39,054 nt of DNA, from positions 1 through 39,054 of the IMG/VR virus record IMGVR_UViG_3300046170_000158, one strand, 5' to 3'. Positions 3,716-13,962 of the stretch are shown one piece after another. Source of the DNA: a virus. A model generated the notes under the pieces. The model searched no databases, was not told the DNA's origin, and saw nothing but the letters and a program-made list of their open reading frames with translations. Position numbers and translations under genes: made by a program. Position 1 is the first letter of the stretch; each line of letters opens with the position of its first letter.

Positions 3716-4084
3716 CTAATATTTGACCTGCATAAGGAAGTCAATGTTGTTTTTACAAGATGGTAAAACTTTGTCGTAGATCTCATTTTGGACATATTCT
3801 ATGTTATTTTTATCGTCTTTATCCCATAATTCGTAGAATAATGTAGCATATACCATAGGATCTATACCTAATTTTTGCCAATATAGTCGTTCACCAGTAT
3901 GGTGCAGTTGAGAATGATGAGCATAACAAAGTGGTATTGTCCAGCAATCGCTAACTTTTTGTGATACTCCACGTTTCTCAGCAATAGTAATATGATGAGC
4001 TTGGCATTCGTGGTACATACAAAGTAAGCATTGTTGACTAGCTACCCATTGTAGATACTTTTTTGATTTCCATCTTTTTTGCAC
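3716..4084 (-). CDS. HNH-type nuclease, DUF968/Ref-like
   Basis: The 122-residue product has a zinc-binding and nuclease pattern: C19-x2-C22, then H30-H31, then 'DCWTIPLCYAHHSQLHHTGE' (C53, H56-H57, H61-H62), then 'WQKLGIDPMVYA'. This order and the wording 'PLC-x2-HH-x3-H' followed by 'GIDP' are typical of the DUF968/RecA-dependent nuclease (P1 Ref) group of HNH proteins, which nick or cut DNA in recombination. The start is GTG with AAAGGA four bases before it; its first codons overlap the regulator gene by 47 bases. The exact substrate is not known. Confidence 0.65.
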   Translation of the reverse strand: MQKRWKSKKYLQWVASQQCLLCMYHECQAHHITIAEKRGVSQKVSDCWTIPLCYAHHSQLHHTGERLYWQKLGIDPMVYATLFYELWDKDDKNNIEYVQNEIYDKVLPSCKNNIDFLMQVKY

Positions 4085-4532
4085 CTTGTCCTTTTATAGT
4101 ATTTCTAACTTTCATGTAACCAAAATATATAGCTAAACTTCTTAGAGCTTCATGTAATAAATTTGATGCTTTTCTTTGTGAGATGTGCAGCAGATTACTT
4201 ATTTCTGTAATACCAAAGTTTTGGTAACAAAAGTACTTTAGAACGATTATAAACTGTTCTTCCAGGTCTTTAGATATTTCAGATAATAAACTAAAAGCTC
4301 CAATTTTAGAATCCATTACTGTGTTAGATCCAAAATCTAGTCTAGGCATATAGTTGGAAGCTCTGCCTCCAAGTTGTGATACTTCGCATAATCGCCTATA
4401 TCTAGATCCTGCAATAAATTCAGGTTCACTTATTAGTTGTCTATGGAACATATAGTCTAATCTGGACTCTCTTACGTTCTTCATAACAGTCTTTTTATCA
4501 AAGACTTTAGGTACTAATTCTAGTTTATCCAT
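4038..4532 (-). CDS. HTH transcription regulator, candidate late-gene activator
   Basis: The 164-residue protein ends in a clear helix-turn-helix of the sigma-70 region 4 kind, around residues 100-136 (ITEISNLLHISQRKASNLLH...LRSLAIYFGY). The N-terminal half, with 'ESRLDYMFHRQLI' and 'GSRYRRLCEVSQLGGR', has the layout of DUF6456-type and ArpU/RinA-like phage regulators. Such proteins often activate the late operon. Here it heads a short leftward block divergent from the recombination genes, and the long late unit has a -10-like site beside an inverted repeat. The link to late control is inference. Confidence 0.55.
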   Translation of the reverse strand: MDKLELVPKVFDKKTVMKNVRESRLDYMFHRQLISEPEFIAGSRYRRLCEVSQLGGRASNYMPRLDFGSNTVMDSKIGAFSLLSEISKDLEEQFIIVLKYFCYQNFGITEISNLLHISQRKASNLLHEALRSLAIYFGYMKVRNTIKGQGAKKMEIKKVSTMGS

Positions 4533-4821
4533 ACTTACTTATATACGATTGAATAGATTTATCAACGAGTGATTTGAACAAAGTATCTTTATTGTATTTA
4601 CCTAGTAATCTATCTACTCGATTACTAGACTTACAATTATGATAGAAAAGGATTTTACTTTTGCACCCATACTTTTTAGTAGGCTGCAATAAGTAAGACA
4701 TAATAATTGAAAGGTTATATACAAAGTAATCTTTCTCGTTTTTAATTGTTTGTTTACCCTTCAATATTTTGATAGAAGTGTCATACTTACTATTTAAAAA
4801 TGAATGAATATTAATCAACAT
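4525..4821 (-). CDS. Unknown protein (about 98 aa), uncertain start
   Basis: The frame ends at 4525, overlapping the regulator start by eight bases, and is open as far as an ATG at 4857; ATGs at 4821 and further in are alternatives. None has a strong ribosome site, and the upstream part overlaps the exonuclease leader on the other strand. The conserved-looking portion is 'YLLQPTKKYGCKSKILFYHN' followed by a helical C-terminus. It is rich in Lys, Tyr and Ser. It may have a damaged 5' end. Function unknown. Confidence 0.4.
   Translation of the reverse strand: MLINIHSFLNSKYDTSIKILKGKQTIKNEKDYFVYNLSIIMSYLLQPTKKYGCKSKILFYHNCKSSNRVDRLLGKYNKDTLFKSLVDKSIQSYISKYG
4769..4796 (+). promoter_or_regulatory. 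Possible promoter for the exonuclease unit
   Basis: TTGATA (4769-4774) and TATTTA (4791-4796) are separated by 16 bases, in the right place upstream of the exonuclease start at 4834. The match to sigma-70 boxes is partial and AT-rich sequence gives many such matches. Confidence 0.3.
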
Positions 4822-7734: not shown

Positions 7735-8067
7735 TTAGTGGTTACCATTCATTTTTTTTTGTAACATATCTACCTGTTCTTTAATGTGATCTATATTAAC
7801 TTTGTTATATCTACTAGCATCAATTTCTTTTTCAATAGATTCTATTTGACCTGCCAAGTGTTCAATAAGCATATAAAGTTCTAGATTCTTAGGTTCTTGC
7901 TCAGCTTTTTTTAAAAGATCAGCTTGAAATAGAGTGTCTGCTGTTTCTAATCTATTGAGTCTTTCTTCTATTCCAAAGTAAGCCCATACACCTACAGCTA
8001 CTGCACCAACAATACCAATTAAGTTTCTTATTGGTAAAGAGACTTGTGTGTTTTCACTTACCTTCAT
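7735..8067 (-). CDS. Membrane-anchored coiled-coil protein
   Basis: The 110-residue product has one transmembrane helix (about residues 14-31, IGIVGAVAVGVWAYFGI) followed by a long charged coiled coil (EERLNRLETADTLF ... IESIEKEID ... EQVDMLQKKM). This is the layout of inner-membrane spanin subunits and related lysis accessory proteins. It lies directly after a two-helix holin candidate (ATGA overlap). A spanin role is inference; I see no matching outer-membrane lipoprotein. Confidence 0.55.
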   Translation of the reverse strand: MKVSENTQVSLPIRNLIGIVGAVAVGVWAYFGIEERLNRLETADTLFQADLLKKAEQEPKNLELYMLIEHLAGQIESIEKEIDASRYNKVNIDHIKEQVDMLQKKMNGNH

Positions 8068-8444
8068 TTGCCACCTTTAAATATTTGAGTACCTTTAATA
8101 CCAAAAATAGAAGCTACTACTAAAATCCATAAATTAGTAAACCATTTTGGAAGATTGCTAAAATGTTCAAAGAACACATTTACTTTTTCCATCATAGCAG
8201 GATCATCTGATATAACTGCATAAGCTAATATTAGTATTGGTAAACTTAATAAGATAAGAACAAACTCATCTTTATAATCATTCTGTCTAGCTTCAAGTAA
8301 TTTACCTGAATATTCTAACTCACCATTAGCCATTTTCTCAGCATGTTTTGCTTGAGCATTAGCCATCATCATTTGAGTTTCTTTTTTCTTTTTGTATATA
8401 TGACTTCCAGCAGAGACTGCTAGTTTTATAGCACTAAACCACAT
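8064..8444 (-). CDS. Holin candidate with two or three membrane helices
   Basis: The 126-residue product has an N-terminal amphipathic, Ala/Met-rich region (residues 1-50). Two strong membrane helices follow, around 61-80 (FVLILLSLPILILAYAVI) and 101-118 (WFTNLWILVVASIFGIKG), with 'SDDPAMMEKVNVFFEHFSNL' between them. That loop and the following helix resemble phage and gene-transfer-agent holin-like proteins of the 3TM type. Position among lysis genes supports this. It would permeabilise the inner membrane at lysis. Confidence 0.5.
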   Translation of the reverse strand: MWFSAIKLAVSAGSHIYKKKKETQMMMANAQAKHAEKMANGELEYSGKLLEARQNDYKDEFVLILLSLPILILAYAVISDDPAMMEKVNVFFEHFSNLPKWFTNLWILVVASIFGIKGTQIFKGGK

Positions 8445-8457
8445 AGTTTCCTTTATT

Positions 8458-8745
8458 TTATTTTGGTTGATATAGAGTGTACGTCAAAGTTAATTCGTTA
8501 TTAGGATAAATATCTTCTTTTGTTTTAAGATAGTATTTATTATTAACTTTAATTCTTTCGCAATTAGATTTATCTGCATGATTAATGAATCCTCCTAATG
8601 GAGTTCTATGTAATTCATTATCTATTTCAATGTGAGATATACCTAACTCGGTACCTTTTTTAATTTCGTGTGTAGCAAATACACCAAGTCCTTCAATCCA
8701 ACTTGGTCTAATAGTAACAAATGGTGGCAATGGTTTGTAAGACAC
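8458..8745 (-). CDS. Minimal SET-domain protein
   Basis: At 95 residues this is a stand-alone SET fold. It has 'GLGVFAT' (residues 19-25, the G-x-G-V-F/Y-A cofactor motif), 'GGFINHADKSNCE' (51-63, matching F-x-N-H-x-x-x-x-N-C) and 'ELTLTYTLY' (84-92, matching E-L-T-x-x-Y). SET proteins transfer methyl groups from S-adenosylmethionine to lysine of proteins. It lacks pre- and post-SET cysteine regions. It starts with GTG directly after the upstream TAA. The target, if any, could be a virion or host protein; the neighbouring very basic DUF6321 protein is one speculative candidate. Confidence 0.75.
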   Translation of the reverse strand: MSYKPLPPFVTIRPSWIEGLGVFATHEIKKGTELGISHIEIDNELHRTPLGGFINHADKSNCERIKVNNKYYLKTKEDIYPNNELTLTYTLYQPK

Positions 8746-8997
8746 TTAACAATTCCATGCTCTTAATGATTTGTTTATTCTACTATTAGGATCTCTTGCT
8801 GTTTTAGCAGAGGTAAGCTTACGTTTCATTCCTTTCATTCTTGCACAGAAAGAAGCTCTACGTTTATTACCTTTCTTTTTACTAGGTGCTTTTAAATTAC
8901 CACCAGTACGTCTGTTATAACTAGCACGTCCTTTAGCATTTAAACCACCTTTAGGGTTCTTGCCTTCTTTACGTTGCCATGCAGGAGACTTAGCCAC
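8746..8997 (-). CDS. DUF6321-type basic phage protein
   Basis: The 83-residue product opens AKSPAWQRKEGKNPKGGLNA, continues GRASYNRRTGGNLKAPS and later has RRASFCARMKGM and NKSLRAWNC. This is the hallmark sequence of the DUF6321 family, seen in very many marine phages and always small, basic and Gly/Lys-rich. Function unknown; DNA or virion binding is suggested only by charge. The start is GTG 8997, overlapping the stop of the microprotein gene upstream (TAGTG). Confidence 0.8.
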   Translation of the reverse strand: MAKSPAWQRKEGKNPKGGLNAKGRASYNRRTGGNLKAPSKKKGNKRRASFCARMKGMKRKLTSAKTARDPNSRINKSLRAWNC

Positions 8998-9149
8998 TAT
9001 CTTTTCTTAGCAGTTCTAGCTGCTCGTTTAAATTGTTTAGAAGTTGGTCTACCTTTTTGACCAGCTTTTCTCATTTTCTCGCCACTACCTGCTTTTATTC
9101 TTTTACGTTTAGCATGTATGTTTGCGTATAGTCCTTTTTTCTTACTCAT
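8997..9149 (-). CDS. Conserved basic microprotein MSKKKGLYANIHAKRKRI type (50 aa)
   Basis: ATG 9149 reads MSKKKGLYANIHAKRKRIKA, then GSGEKMRKAGQKGRPT and ends RTAKKR before TAG at 8997-8999. Very similar 45-50 residue proteins occur in many phages next to DUF6321 or structural genes; their role is unknown. About 40 per cent of residues are Lys/Arg, so nucleic-acid binding is plausible. It overlaps the upstream lysozyme-like gene by four bases. Confidence 0.75.
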   Translation of the reverse strand: MSKKKGLYANIHAKRKRIKAGSGEKMRKAGQKGRPTSKQFKRAARTAKKR

Positions 9150-9583
9150 GTTGTTGGATGTCCTTCCCATGCTTTTAGCATTCCTTCTGAAATTACTTCA
9201 TCATCATATGGTTGATCACCATTCTCCATACGGATAATAGCTTTAACCAAAGGTAAGTAATCTTCTATACTGTTTGACAGTTCTTCATCTTTATCTTTAG
9301 ATGTAGCTGCACAAACATATTTAATATAATTGTCTGTATCGTTTTCGATAGGGGGCGCCCATCTATGTATAATTTTTTCTATAGTTTTAATATCGTAGTT
9401 AAATCTATAAGTTAAAAGGATACGCACTAAGGCACGTAAACCCCATACAGGTTCTTTAAACTGACAGAATACATCGTCATTTTGTTCGTCTGACAATCCA
9501 TCCCAAGCAGTTCCTAATTTTATATTACCTGGATTATGATTTCTTATTCCTCTAGGTAATGATTTTTCCGATCCATCTTCCAT
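9146..9583 (-). CDS. P5-like virion/lysozyme-fold protein, endolysin candidate
   Basis: The 145-residue product carries 'RGIRNHNPGNIKLGTAWDGL' (residues 11-30), 'FCQFKEPVWGLRALVRIL' and 'IIHRWAPPIENDTDNYIKYV'. These are the conserved blocks of the phage 'structural protein P5'/peptidoglycan hydrolase-like family, a goose-lysozyme-like helical fold used for wall degradation at entry or lysis. It sits in the lysis/membrane gene group with a holin candidate, supporting an endolysin role. The catalytic residue cannot be fixed from sequence alone. The ATG at 9583 overlaps the phosphoesterase gene by 32 bases and has a weak ribosome site. Confidence 0.65.
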   Translation of the reverse strand: MEDGSEKSLPRGIRNHNPGNIKLGTAWDGLSDEQNDDVFCQFKEPVWGLRALVRILLTYRFNYDIKTIEKIIHRWAPPIENDTDNYIKYVCAATSKDKDEELSNSIEDYLPLVKAIIRMENGDQPYDDEVISEGMLKAWEGHPTT

Positions 9584-10723: not shown

Positions 10724-13700
10724 TTAAAACAATGTCTTATAAGGATCTCTCATAAGCCCTCCCAGTTTATATTTAGTATATCTTGGCCCTTTATATCTAG
10801 GATGACCTGACTGTCCTAATACGAAATCTAATGCTACATCAGCAGCTATGTCTGATGGTACATTGCCTCTTTCTAATTGTTCTTTAGTAGATCTTACTGC
10901 ACTTTGTAACCAAATAGGTAAGAATCGTTGTCCTGCTTGACCCCCTATTTTCATAGCTTTTTCAATAGCATTATCATCTACTTTATTAATACTAGGTGAA
11001 TAGCCAGTAGTCAAATATTGTTTATTAGTTAAAATTTCTGTTACAGTTCTAGGCAAAGAACCAATCTTTTTAAGACCTGTTTTTTGTGGATCTGTAATCC
11101 AATGGAAAGGTTCCATTAATTGTTTAGAGAATGTAAGTACATCTCCATTACCTAAATCTATTCTAGTAGGATCTGTATTTTCTAATACTGATTTACCTGA
11201 GAATGCATAGTTCATAGCATTTCCTACTACTCCAAATAGTATTGCAGCTTTAGCAAAGTAATAACCATACATACGTCTTGCATCTGAATTAGCTTCAAAT
11301 GCAGGTAATGCTTTACCTATAATTCTTAAATTAGATATAGTCCAATCAGGTGCAAATAAAAGTAATTGCATATAACCTCTAGATCCTGGTTGGAACATAG
11401 TTTGTGCTAAACTTTTAAATATTGGTGTTTGTATATTTTTAGTTAATGCAAACCAATCTTGACCACCAAATGCGTCATTAGTAAATTGTGCTGCTAGTCT
11501 AGCTTTACTATATATATGTGCTTGTGTTTTATCAGTAGGATCTATATTTTATTTAATTGTGTTAAAAATGTGTAGAGTTTAGCATGTGTAAATATTCTAT
11601 CCCATGTAATTCTATCAAAGAATTTAAATACTTTTTCTATATTTTCACCTTGTTTAATACCAAGCTGATGTTTTAATAGTCTGTCAAACTTACGCATTTG
11701 TCCATAGAATCTATCAAATCCAACATCTTCAGGTGTTGAAATAACTAATCTTGAAGCTTGTGCAAATCTAACTACATCATTAAAACCAAAATCTTTAATA
11801 GCTTGATTAGCATGAGTAAATTCTTTTAAATAAATTCCAGGATTTTCAATCATTTTCATGATTTCTGTTTTTTTCTTTTCTAAATGCTTGTTTAGTAAAT
11901 TTAACAATTACTTTAGCAGGTACAGTAGAAAATATCATACTTTCAATTAAAGCTCCTGCGTGAAAAAATGATCCTCCCACAGCTAATCTTTTCATCATAA
12001 GATTTGTTGTAAAGATAGCAGACATTAATTCACCTTCTGTTGTTGCGTCAAAAACCATACGTAATGATTTTTCTGTACCACGTGCTACATAAGTAGCATC
12101 TCTTTGACCTAAGAAAGGGTGATTAAATTTTGTGTAATGTGTTCCTAAATATTTACTATACGTTCCTACTTGTCTAGGATTGTTAATCATTAAAGGGAGT
12201 TTAGCTGTAAATCCTTGACCAACAGGTATAACAAGAGGACTGTATTTAGTATTAGTTAAATACTTAATCATTTGTCTTGTCATTAAAGCTTTAGTAACTG
12301 AGCTAGTATATATTCTTAATAATTCAGCTGGATCGTCCATGCCTTTGTTAAGATTATAACCTGCTTTATAACCTTCATTAATATCAGAAAATCTTCTTTG
12401 TTTACCAAATTTTGTTATTGCAGTATTTCCATAAACTTTTTCATTAAATTTTTGTGCAAAAATTAAAGGTTCTTTTTCAAATGTATCCCATAATAAAGGC
12501 AAATAATTACTTCTATATGATTTAATAAGTGTTGGATCTAGTTTATCTAATTCAATATATAAACCATCTAATGCTTTTTTAACATAGAAAGCACCTTGTG
12601 CTTCTCTTTTGTTTAAATCTTTTAATGTAAGTTGTTTACCATTAAGATCAAAATTTAAATTTTTATCAACTTTAGTTCCTTGTATGTAATGAAATACTTT
12701 AGATCTAGAAGTTTGATCAGGTAAAAATTCTTTAATTCTATTAACTAAAGGTATAGATGCACTTTCTAATTTATGATGATAAACGTGCATTGCATCTAAT
12801 GCGTTTTCCATTGTATTAATACTTTTAGTTTCAATTTGAGAAGGCATAGTTCTCATTAATTTATAAAGACCTTTACCTGCTAAATATATACCTACACCTG
12901 CACCAAAACCTATAGCTGATTCTTTTAGTTTATCTTTAGGCTCTGTTAAAAATTGTGCAGTTGCTCCTATAGCTCCAAAACTCGCTGCTTTAAATGCAGT
13001 TGCTTTTGCCATATCTAAAGCATTTTCTATTGGTCTTTTTAAAGCAATATCTATTTGACTAGATAATCTTGCAAATTCTTCATCTGATACATTACTTAAT
13101 GTTTCTTTTAATTCTTTAATAAGAGCATTAGTTGCTACTCTACCATTTCCATCAGAAGTAAGTTCTAGTAGCTTGTCAGCTTTCATATTTTTTGTAGCTC
13201 TAATAAAAGCTTGTCTAACTTGTGGTTCAGCAATACCTAGATCTCTAGCAGCTAATGCTGGTATAGCTCCAAATACAGTACTCATTACTAGTCCAGCTGT
13301 TGCACCTATAGTAGTTTCTGTAGTAGTTCTACCTAAAGAGATCTCTCCTTTTTCACCTAATTGTAATCCAGTAGAAAAAGCTAATGGTGTAAATAAAGCA
13401 GCAGCTGCTCCATACTTAATATCTTTACGATATTTCTGTTTAAACTTGTCATCTACATATCTAAATCTTTTAGAGTATTTAGCACGTGTAGCTTGACTAC
13501 CCCCCTGCCTAGTCTTGTAAAAAATGTAGCAGGTATAGCTAATAAATAAGGATCAGCTACTATCATGTTAACTAACTCAGCACCCATCATACCAGGATGT
13601 TTTTTAGCTAGTTTAACTACTTCACTAAATTCAAATGTTTGATTGCCTTCTTCTAAAAGGTAACCAAATTTATTATATATTCTTTCAGCTTCTTTATACT

Positions 13701-13962
13701 GTCCAGTATTTCTTAATTCAGGGAATCTTTGTAAAAATCGTTTAGCATCTAATGCTTGTTTCTTTTTAGTATTACCAGTTATCCATTGATACAATGATGC
13801 AGGTAATGATTCCTCAAATATAAGCTCCATTGGGTTTCTAAGTGTTTGAAAGAAACCAGGAGGCTTTTGCATTTTGTTTTGTAAAGGATCTCTCAAGGGA
13901 TCTTGAACATCCTTTATAGGATCCTTTAGATTAGGGTCGTTAAATCTAAAGTCGTTTGCCAT
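10724..13962 (-). CDS. Large internal virion/ejection protein candidate (about 1,079 aa), broken by three frameshifts
   Basis: Four consecutive frames read as one protein. From ATG 13962 the first runs to 'FFTRLGRG' and resumes as 'SQATRAKYSKRFRYVDD' after the C-run at 13500-13505. The second ends at 'QAFRKEK' and resumes as 'TEIMKMIENPGIYLKEF' after the T7 run at 11868-11874. The third ends at 'FLTQLNK' and resumes as 'NIDPTDKTQAHIYSKARLAA' after the T4 run at 11547-11550. The restored protein is helical with glycine/alanine-rich hydrophobic stretches (AIGFGAGVGIYLAGKGLYKL) and no catalytic motif I can name. Size, position after the adhesins and composition suggest an ejected internal core protein, as in other podoviruses. 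Confidence 0.6.

Follow-up and report, generated by a model that had tools for sequence, protein, structure and literature searches.

The viral DNA analysed here is a stretch of 39,054 nucleotides (IMG/VR record IMGVR_UViG_3300046170_000158, positions 1 to 39,054; hereafter the window), which carries on its minus strand, at positions 8458-8745, a 95-residue open reading frame with a GTG start. Pfam, PHROG, AlphaFold2 and Foldseek (matches to vSET, SpSet7 and MLL) identify its product as a minimal stand-alone SET protein of PHROG 28741. A sequence-only reading of the window had recognised three SET signatures in this small protein, and all three were found in place on the minus strand: GLGVFAT (residues 19-25, 8671-8691), which contains the cofactor-binding GxG; FINHADKSNC (residues 53-62, 8560-8589), with the cofactor-binding N55-H56 and N61; and ELTLTY (residues 84-89, 8479-8496), which ends in the predicted catalytic Tyr89. 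The protein passes the Pfam SET model (PF00856) with an E-value of 3.4e-10 and a score of 40.7 bits against a gathering cut-off of 22.4, and the same model is matched by 62/62 aligned relatives. PHROG 28741, which is labelled 'unknown function' and can now be assigned to SET, is matched from end to end (2.1e-23), and a search of NCBIfam with the window protein returned no family. The description of the gene as a stand-alone SET domain encoded by a phage was thus borne out.

The neighbouring genes lie on the same strand. Immediately upstream is a basic DUF6321 protein (8746-8997; 83 aa, 18% Lys, 31% Lys + Arg; Pfam DUF6321, 7.1e-24), followed by a basic microprotein of 57 aa (8997-9170; 23% Lys, 37% Lys + Arg; PHROG 16028, 4e-26). 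An endolysin-like protein of 145 aa (9146-9583; PHROG 873 endolysin, 3.4e-49) is encoded in the same operon two genes upstream of DUF6321. Downstream of SET lies a small PHROG 2524 protein of 126 aa with hydrophobic stretches (8064-8444). Of the 28 phage records with a PHROG 2524 protein, 26 are Pelagibacter phages, and an M15 peptidase is often its neighbour; the protein belongs to a pelagiphage lysis-region gene family and by position is a possible holin. For the large terminase of the window, the nearest relatives come from Pelagibacter phages, for example HTVC106P (49%). Together, the terminase and PHROG 2524 affinities indicate that the window probably derives from a pelagiphage with SET in a late/lysis cluster, in agreement with the bacterial host and the late lysis region proposed from the sequence.

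The start of the SET gene abuts the stop codon of the DUF6321 gene (TAAGTG). In a sister phage (L001; 94% identical), gene order is unchanged and ATG replaces GTG at the equivalent site, so that SET and its upstream gene look translationally coupled. The dN/dS ratio is 0.15 between the window and L001, with a median of 0.12 over 393 pairs of relatives and a maximum of no more than 0.48. The SET gene is therefore real and under purifying selection. Elsewhere in the window (10724-13962, minus strand), four open reading frames separated by three frame changes correspond to a single 1079-aa frame in L001 (783-4022), which suggests that this AT-rich record contains errors of sequencing or assembly; despite these frame changes, the SET frame is unbroken in both the window and L001.

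AlphaFold2, supplied with a 62-sequence alignment, modelled the protein with a mean pLDDT of 91.7 and a pTM of 0.80, with values below 50 only at residues 92-95. In a Foldseek comparison with the PDB, SET/PR structures made up 50/50 of the matches listed, including vSET (E 4.6e-5, rmsd 2.6, TM 0.74/0.67), Plasmodium PFL0690c, S. pombe Set7, and MLL and NSD enzymes. The family profile gave a full-length match to vSET (residues 4 to 105, E=1.4e-9) in which the GxG and NHS motifs are aligned, Tyr89 falls on vSET Tyr105 and N55-H56 on the vSET NH; the profile also matches KMT2/MLL and SpSet7. The structure prediction proposed earlier as a check on the cofactor pocket and tyrosine, judged here on residues and fold, thus yielded a confident SET fold with the cofactor-motif residues present.

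Conservation was assessed in 202 members of the family, non-redundant at 90%, which for the most part share 45-65% identity with the window protein. G21, N55, N61, E84 and Y89 are invariant (202/202), with the conservation of columns 47-55 inflated because these columns partly served as retrieval patterns, and with Y89, E84, N61, G35 and G21 lying mostly outside those patterns. G19 is present in 194/200 and H56 is retained in 199/202, the three variants having Cys (L081 and L083) or Tyr (L300). L081 and L083 form, with their relatives L079, L090 and L092, a branch with the motif FINCDENANC, in which the cofactor His is replaced by Cys and the C-terminal tail resembles the one on a nuclease-like protein encoded nearby in L005.

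GxG and the cofactor Asn lie 36 residues apart in the window protein (family median 38, range 35-47), 54 in vSET and 72 in a chromosomal SET protein of SAR11 bacteria, and the catalytic Tyr follows this Asn at a distance of 34 in both the window protein and the SAR11 protein and of 36 in vSET. By these sequence distances, the shortened part of the family is most of the SET-I insert. In known SET enzymes the peptide groove is walled on one side by the SET-I region, and loss of this region could weaken or abolish peptide binding. The window protein stops six residues past Tyr89 and has no Cys there, which means that the post-SET cysteine cluster is also missing. The family has a median length of 100 aa (from mechanically called open reading frames); its longest frames have merely short extensions or a coiled tail, and no fusion of SET to another recognisable domain was found in about 400 loci, some of them overlapping, from IMG/VR. 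In one locus, L395, a mini-SET gene (4001-4294, plus strand) converges with a longer SET-like gene of 122 aa (4281-4649, minus strand), whose cofactor motif has NS in place of NH.

Several known SET proteins share parts of this architecture. The viral H3K27 methyltransferase vSET (PBCV-1 A612L, PDB 1N3J/3KMA) is likewise short, stand-alone and viral and has the same fold (rmsd 2.6), but it has 119 residues, about 18 of them extra in the SET-I region, and the window protein, although predicted to work in a similar way, is not of the same form because its SET-I length differs (36 versus 54). The host of vSET is a eukaryote with histones, whereas that of the window phage is probably bacterial. 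vSET is packaged, methylates host histone H3 and has been called the smallest histone methyltransferase (PMC7019647). S. pombe Set7 (5H6Z) and Plasmodium PFL0690c (4RZ0) share the LG..NHSxxPN region with the window protein (TMq 0.76 and 0.71, respectively), but are longer and eukaryotic. The SET domains of KMT2/MLL enzymes gave strong profile matches, with SxIxGLGLxAxxxI and NHSxxPNC in common, but these enzymes have both SET-I and post-SET regions and act within a WDR5/RbBP5/Ash2L complex. The canonical eukaryotic histone methyltransferases also have the post-SET cysteine cluster that the window protein lacks.

The sequence-only reading had considered SET methyltransferases rare in phages with bacterial hosts. 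This holds for sequenced phages, with detectable relatives in 6/50,697 phage records (Kolga EXVC016S, P-RSM6 twice, P-SSM7 twice and AG-345-P14), where the gene is annotated as hypothetical or not at all. It does not hold for marine viral contigs, since five overlapping profile scans of IMG/VR each gave at least 580-594 confirmed relatives. Bacterial genomes contributed 28 SET-family loci, several of which are clearly chromosomal. Porticoccaceae have a chromosomal block fabA-fabB-SET-peroxiredoxin-ssb-uvrA and a Flavobacteriaceae copy lies inside an arginine operon (gene names read from the sequences in both cases), while single chromosomal copies occur in SAR86, Saccharibacteria and one Pelagibacteraceae genome. 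In seven Porticoccaceae loci (L102, L107, L108, L110, L111, L113 and L114) the mini-SET gene directly follows fabB. Most Porticoccaceae genomes are without the gene, and some copies contain stop codons; within families, chromosomal SET is sporadic (7/98 and 8/150 genomes, a few weak matches included). In a FastTree phylogeny, which is weak for such a short domain, the chromosomal copies fall inside the phage sequences at about five separate points. Their sporadic and nested occurrence is what would be expected if phages and bacteria had exchanged the gene repeatedly, in either direction. Hundreds of similarly small SET copies are thus spread across uncultured marine viruses, with a few more in bacterial chromosomes.

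From the motifs and the structural model, we infer that the gene product is probably a SAM-dependent protein-lysine N-methyltransferase, catalytically competent although pared down to a minimal core. In such an enzyme, the GxG (residues 19-21) and N55-H56 would hold the methyl donor and Tyr89 would line the lysine channel; with neither the SET-I wall nor the post-SET zinc cluster present, the substrate side would be open. Specificity would then have to come from the few conserved family-specific residues (Y3xPLP, H38, R47-T-P-L-G-G and Y92), or from a partner or a dimer. The enzyme would most likely act late in infection, and its targets would be a small number of proteins, perhaps a single one, from host or phage; the Lys-rich neighbours are not favoured as targets. 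The gene itself would be mobile cargo, carried mostly in late (packaging, baseplate and lysis) operons of marine phages and swapped several times with bacterial chromosomes.

The genomic positions of the family are consistent with such cargo. In T4-like loci, SET lies near the baseplate gene gp25 (36/202), and its other side is often flanked by PHROG 516, a basic protein of 48 aa that occurs in 447 phage records, almost all of them without SET. The PHROG 516-gp25 interval looks like a cargo slot in T4-like cyanophages; in phage ACG-2014e (L328, 59979-66122) it is occupied by PurM where others have SET. In another branch, terL and/or portal genes are found beside SET in 28/77 loci, and in L071 SET adjoins terL, while in P-SSM7 it is placed after nrdB. 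Neighbours are mostly co-oriented with SET (304/353), and the 202 members have 224 distinct adjacent clusters. With its varied late-module slots, SET therefore behaves like cargo that has been inserted into late operons, which counts against a fixed partner next door. Sporadic presence, varied slots and apparent exchange with bacteria together characterise the gene as mobile cargo of the moron or auxiliary type.

A narrower version of the methyltransferase reading, which we regard as a tentative possibility, is that the targets of SET are proteins of the virion or of packaging (portal, terminase, baseplate or capsid), in which case methyl-lysine would be present on progeny virions. The recurrence of the gene in late virion-building operons of unrelated phages, as seen at terL, portal and gp25, and its co-orientation with the neighbours argue for this version. 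However, no structural gene is constant beside SET, the P-SSM7 copy follows nrdB, and late-operon cargo slots also carry unrelated genes such as PurM. SET also appears to be dispensable, because it is absent from phages whose structural genes are related. A bolder proposal, speculative and rather doubtful at present, is that the SET-I-less phage enzymes methylate folded assembly proteins encoded in the terminase/portal/baseplate region, or act from the virion on the next host, and have repeatedly been taken up by bacterial chromosomes. If true, this would reveal a layer of protein-lysine methylation in phages that has not been described before.

It is unlikely that the protein is a non-catalytic SET/beta-clip domain retained as a binding or structural module. 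The absence of SET-I would be compatible with this explanation, as would the loss of H56 in a few variants and the replacement of the canonical active-site Tyr of the YxGE strand, apparently by Ser/Thr37 in the window protein. SAF domains, the proposed ancestors of SET, bind carbohydrate (PMC3980110). Nevertheless, the Tyr replacement is not disqualifying for an enzyme, because vSET aligns Cys at that position, and the invariance of Tyr89, N55, N61 and G21 over 202 members under strong purifying selection argues against a purely structural role.

The probable host lineage has a SET protein of its own, the SAR11 chromosomal SET of about 165 aa (L342-L350). It shares the Asn-to-Tyr distance of 34 with the window protein but, unlike it, has a complete SET-I and a cluster of Cys residues at its C-terminus. 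SET proteins of 161-186 aa of this type are encoded in 38/53 genomes of the Pelagibacteraceae family of genome G005, one of which also has a mini-SET (L341), and protein-lysine methylation therefore probably already belongs to the biology of the likely host. The phage protein might accordingly be supposed to imitate or compete with the host enzyme and take over its target. We consider this improbable, since the two proteins share just core motifs, the surroundings of the chromosomal gene show no pattern from which its target could be named, and the phage family extends to cyanophages and to bacteria from other phyla, the survey of host enzymes having covered the SAR11 family. In the three loci read, the chromosomal SET gene (for example L342, 1354-1851, minus strand) lies near a rhodanese-like gene. 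It was also considered as the source of the phage gene and rejected, as it has no relatives in the 50,697 phage records and its SET-I is too different for a recent parent.

The Lys-rich microproteins beside SET had been suggested as substrates. Their composition is real (18% and 23% Lys), but a substrate role finds little support across the family. In the window and L001 these genes abut SET with apparent translational coupling, and in T4-like loci the basic PHROG 516 microprotein is adjacent to SET in 11 cases and no more than three genes away in 20. Among cellular prokaryotic SET enzymes, cpnSET of Chlamydia pneumoniae and Go1-SET of Methanosarcina mazei have Hc1 and MC1-alpha, respectively, as methylation substrates, both of them proteins associated with DNA (PMC3980110); these enzymes are likened to the window protein by description, not by sequence. 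Among the relatives, DUF6321 is found near SET only in L001 and L036, which corresponds to 2/202 non-redundant loci (the window and L036), and of the 89 relatives tested first, L001 alone had the 57-aa microprotein. DUF6321 and PHROG 516 occur in 515 and 447 phage records, respectively, nearly all without SET, which itself is found in six. Genes adjacent to SET contain 9.24% Lys compared to 8.90% in other nearby genes (p=0.07), leaving a Lys enrichment unclear, and their Lys + Arg content (14.2% versus 13.4%, p=0.008) is at least partly owed to the T4-like slot. As a rule, Lys-rich neighbours were therefore rejected as conserved partners, and methylation of the adjacent DUF6321 and 57-aa proteins is very unlikely.

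SET genes have been annotated in phages before. Uncultured Caudovirales phages in BFVD encode SET in tailed phages, but with 128-263 aa among the top matches. To our knowledge, none of the SET proteins annotated in other phages has been characterised. A literature search for papers joining 'SET domain' with cyanophage found none, and a general search of the phage literature returned only ORF62 of the tailed Stenotrophomonas phage Ps15, annotated with a SET domain (PMC9025141), plus a figure mention in HIMB59 bacteria. The present family adds a SET protein smaller than vSET that is common in ocean phages. It makes a possible protein-lysine methylation during phage infection of bacteria accessible to experiment, and cultured SET-positive phages exist for this purpose (Kolga EXVC016S, P-SSM7 and P-RSM6). 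If active without SET-I, these proteins would also bear on the minimal needs of a SET domain. Two larger viral proteins have a SET domain close to the family, BFVD A0A218ML49 (971 aa, 'uncultured virus') and PHROG 34170 (296 aa), and their fusion partners could hint at the SET target.
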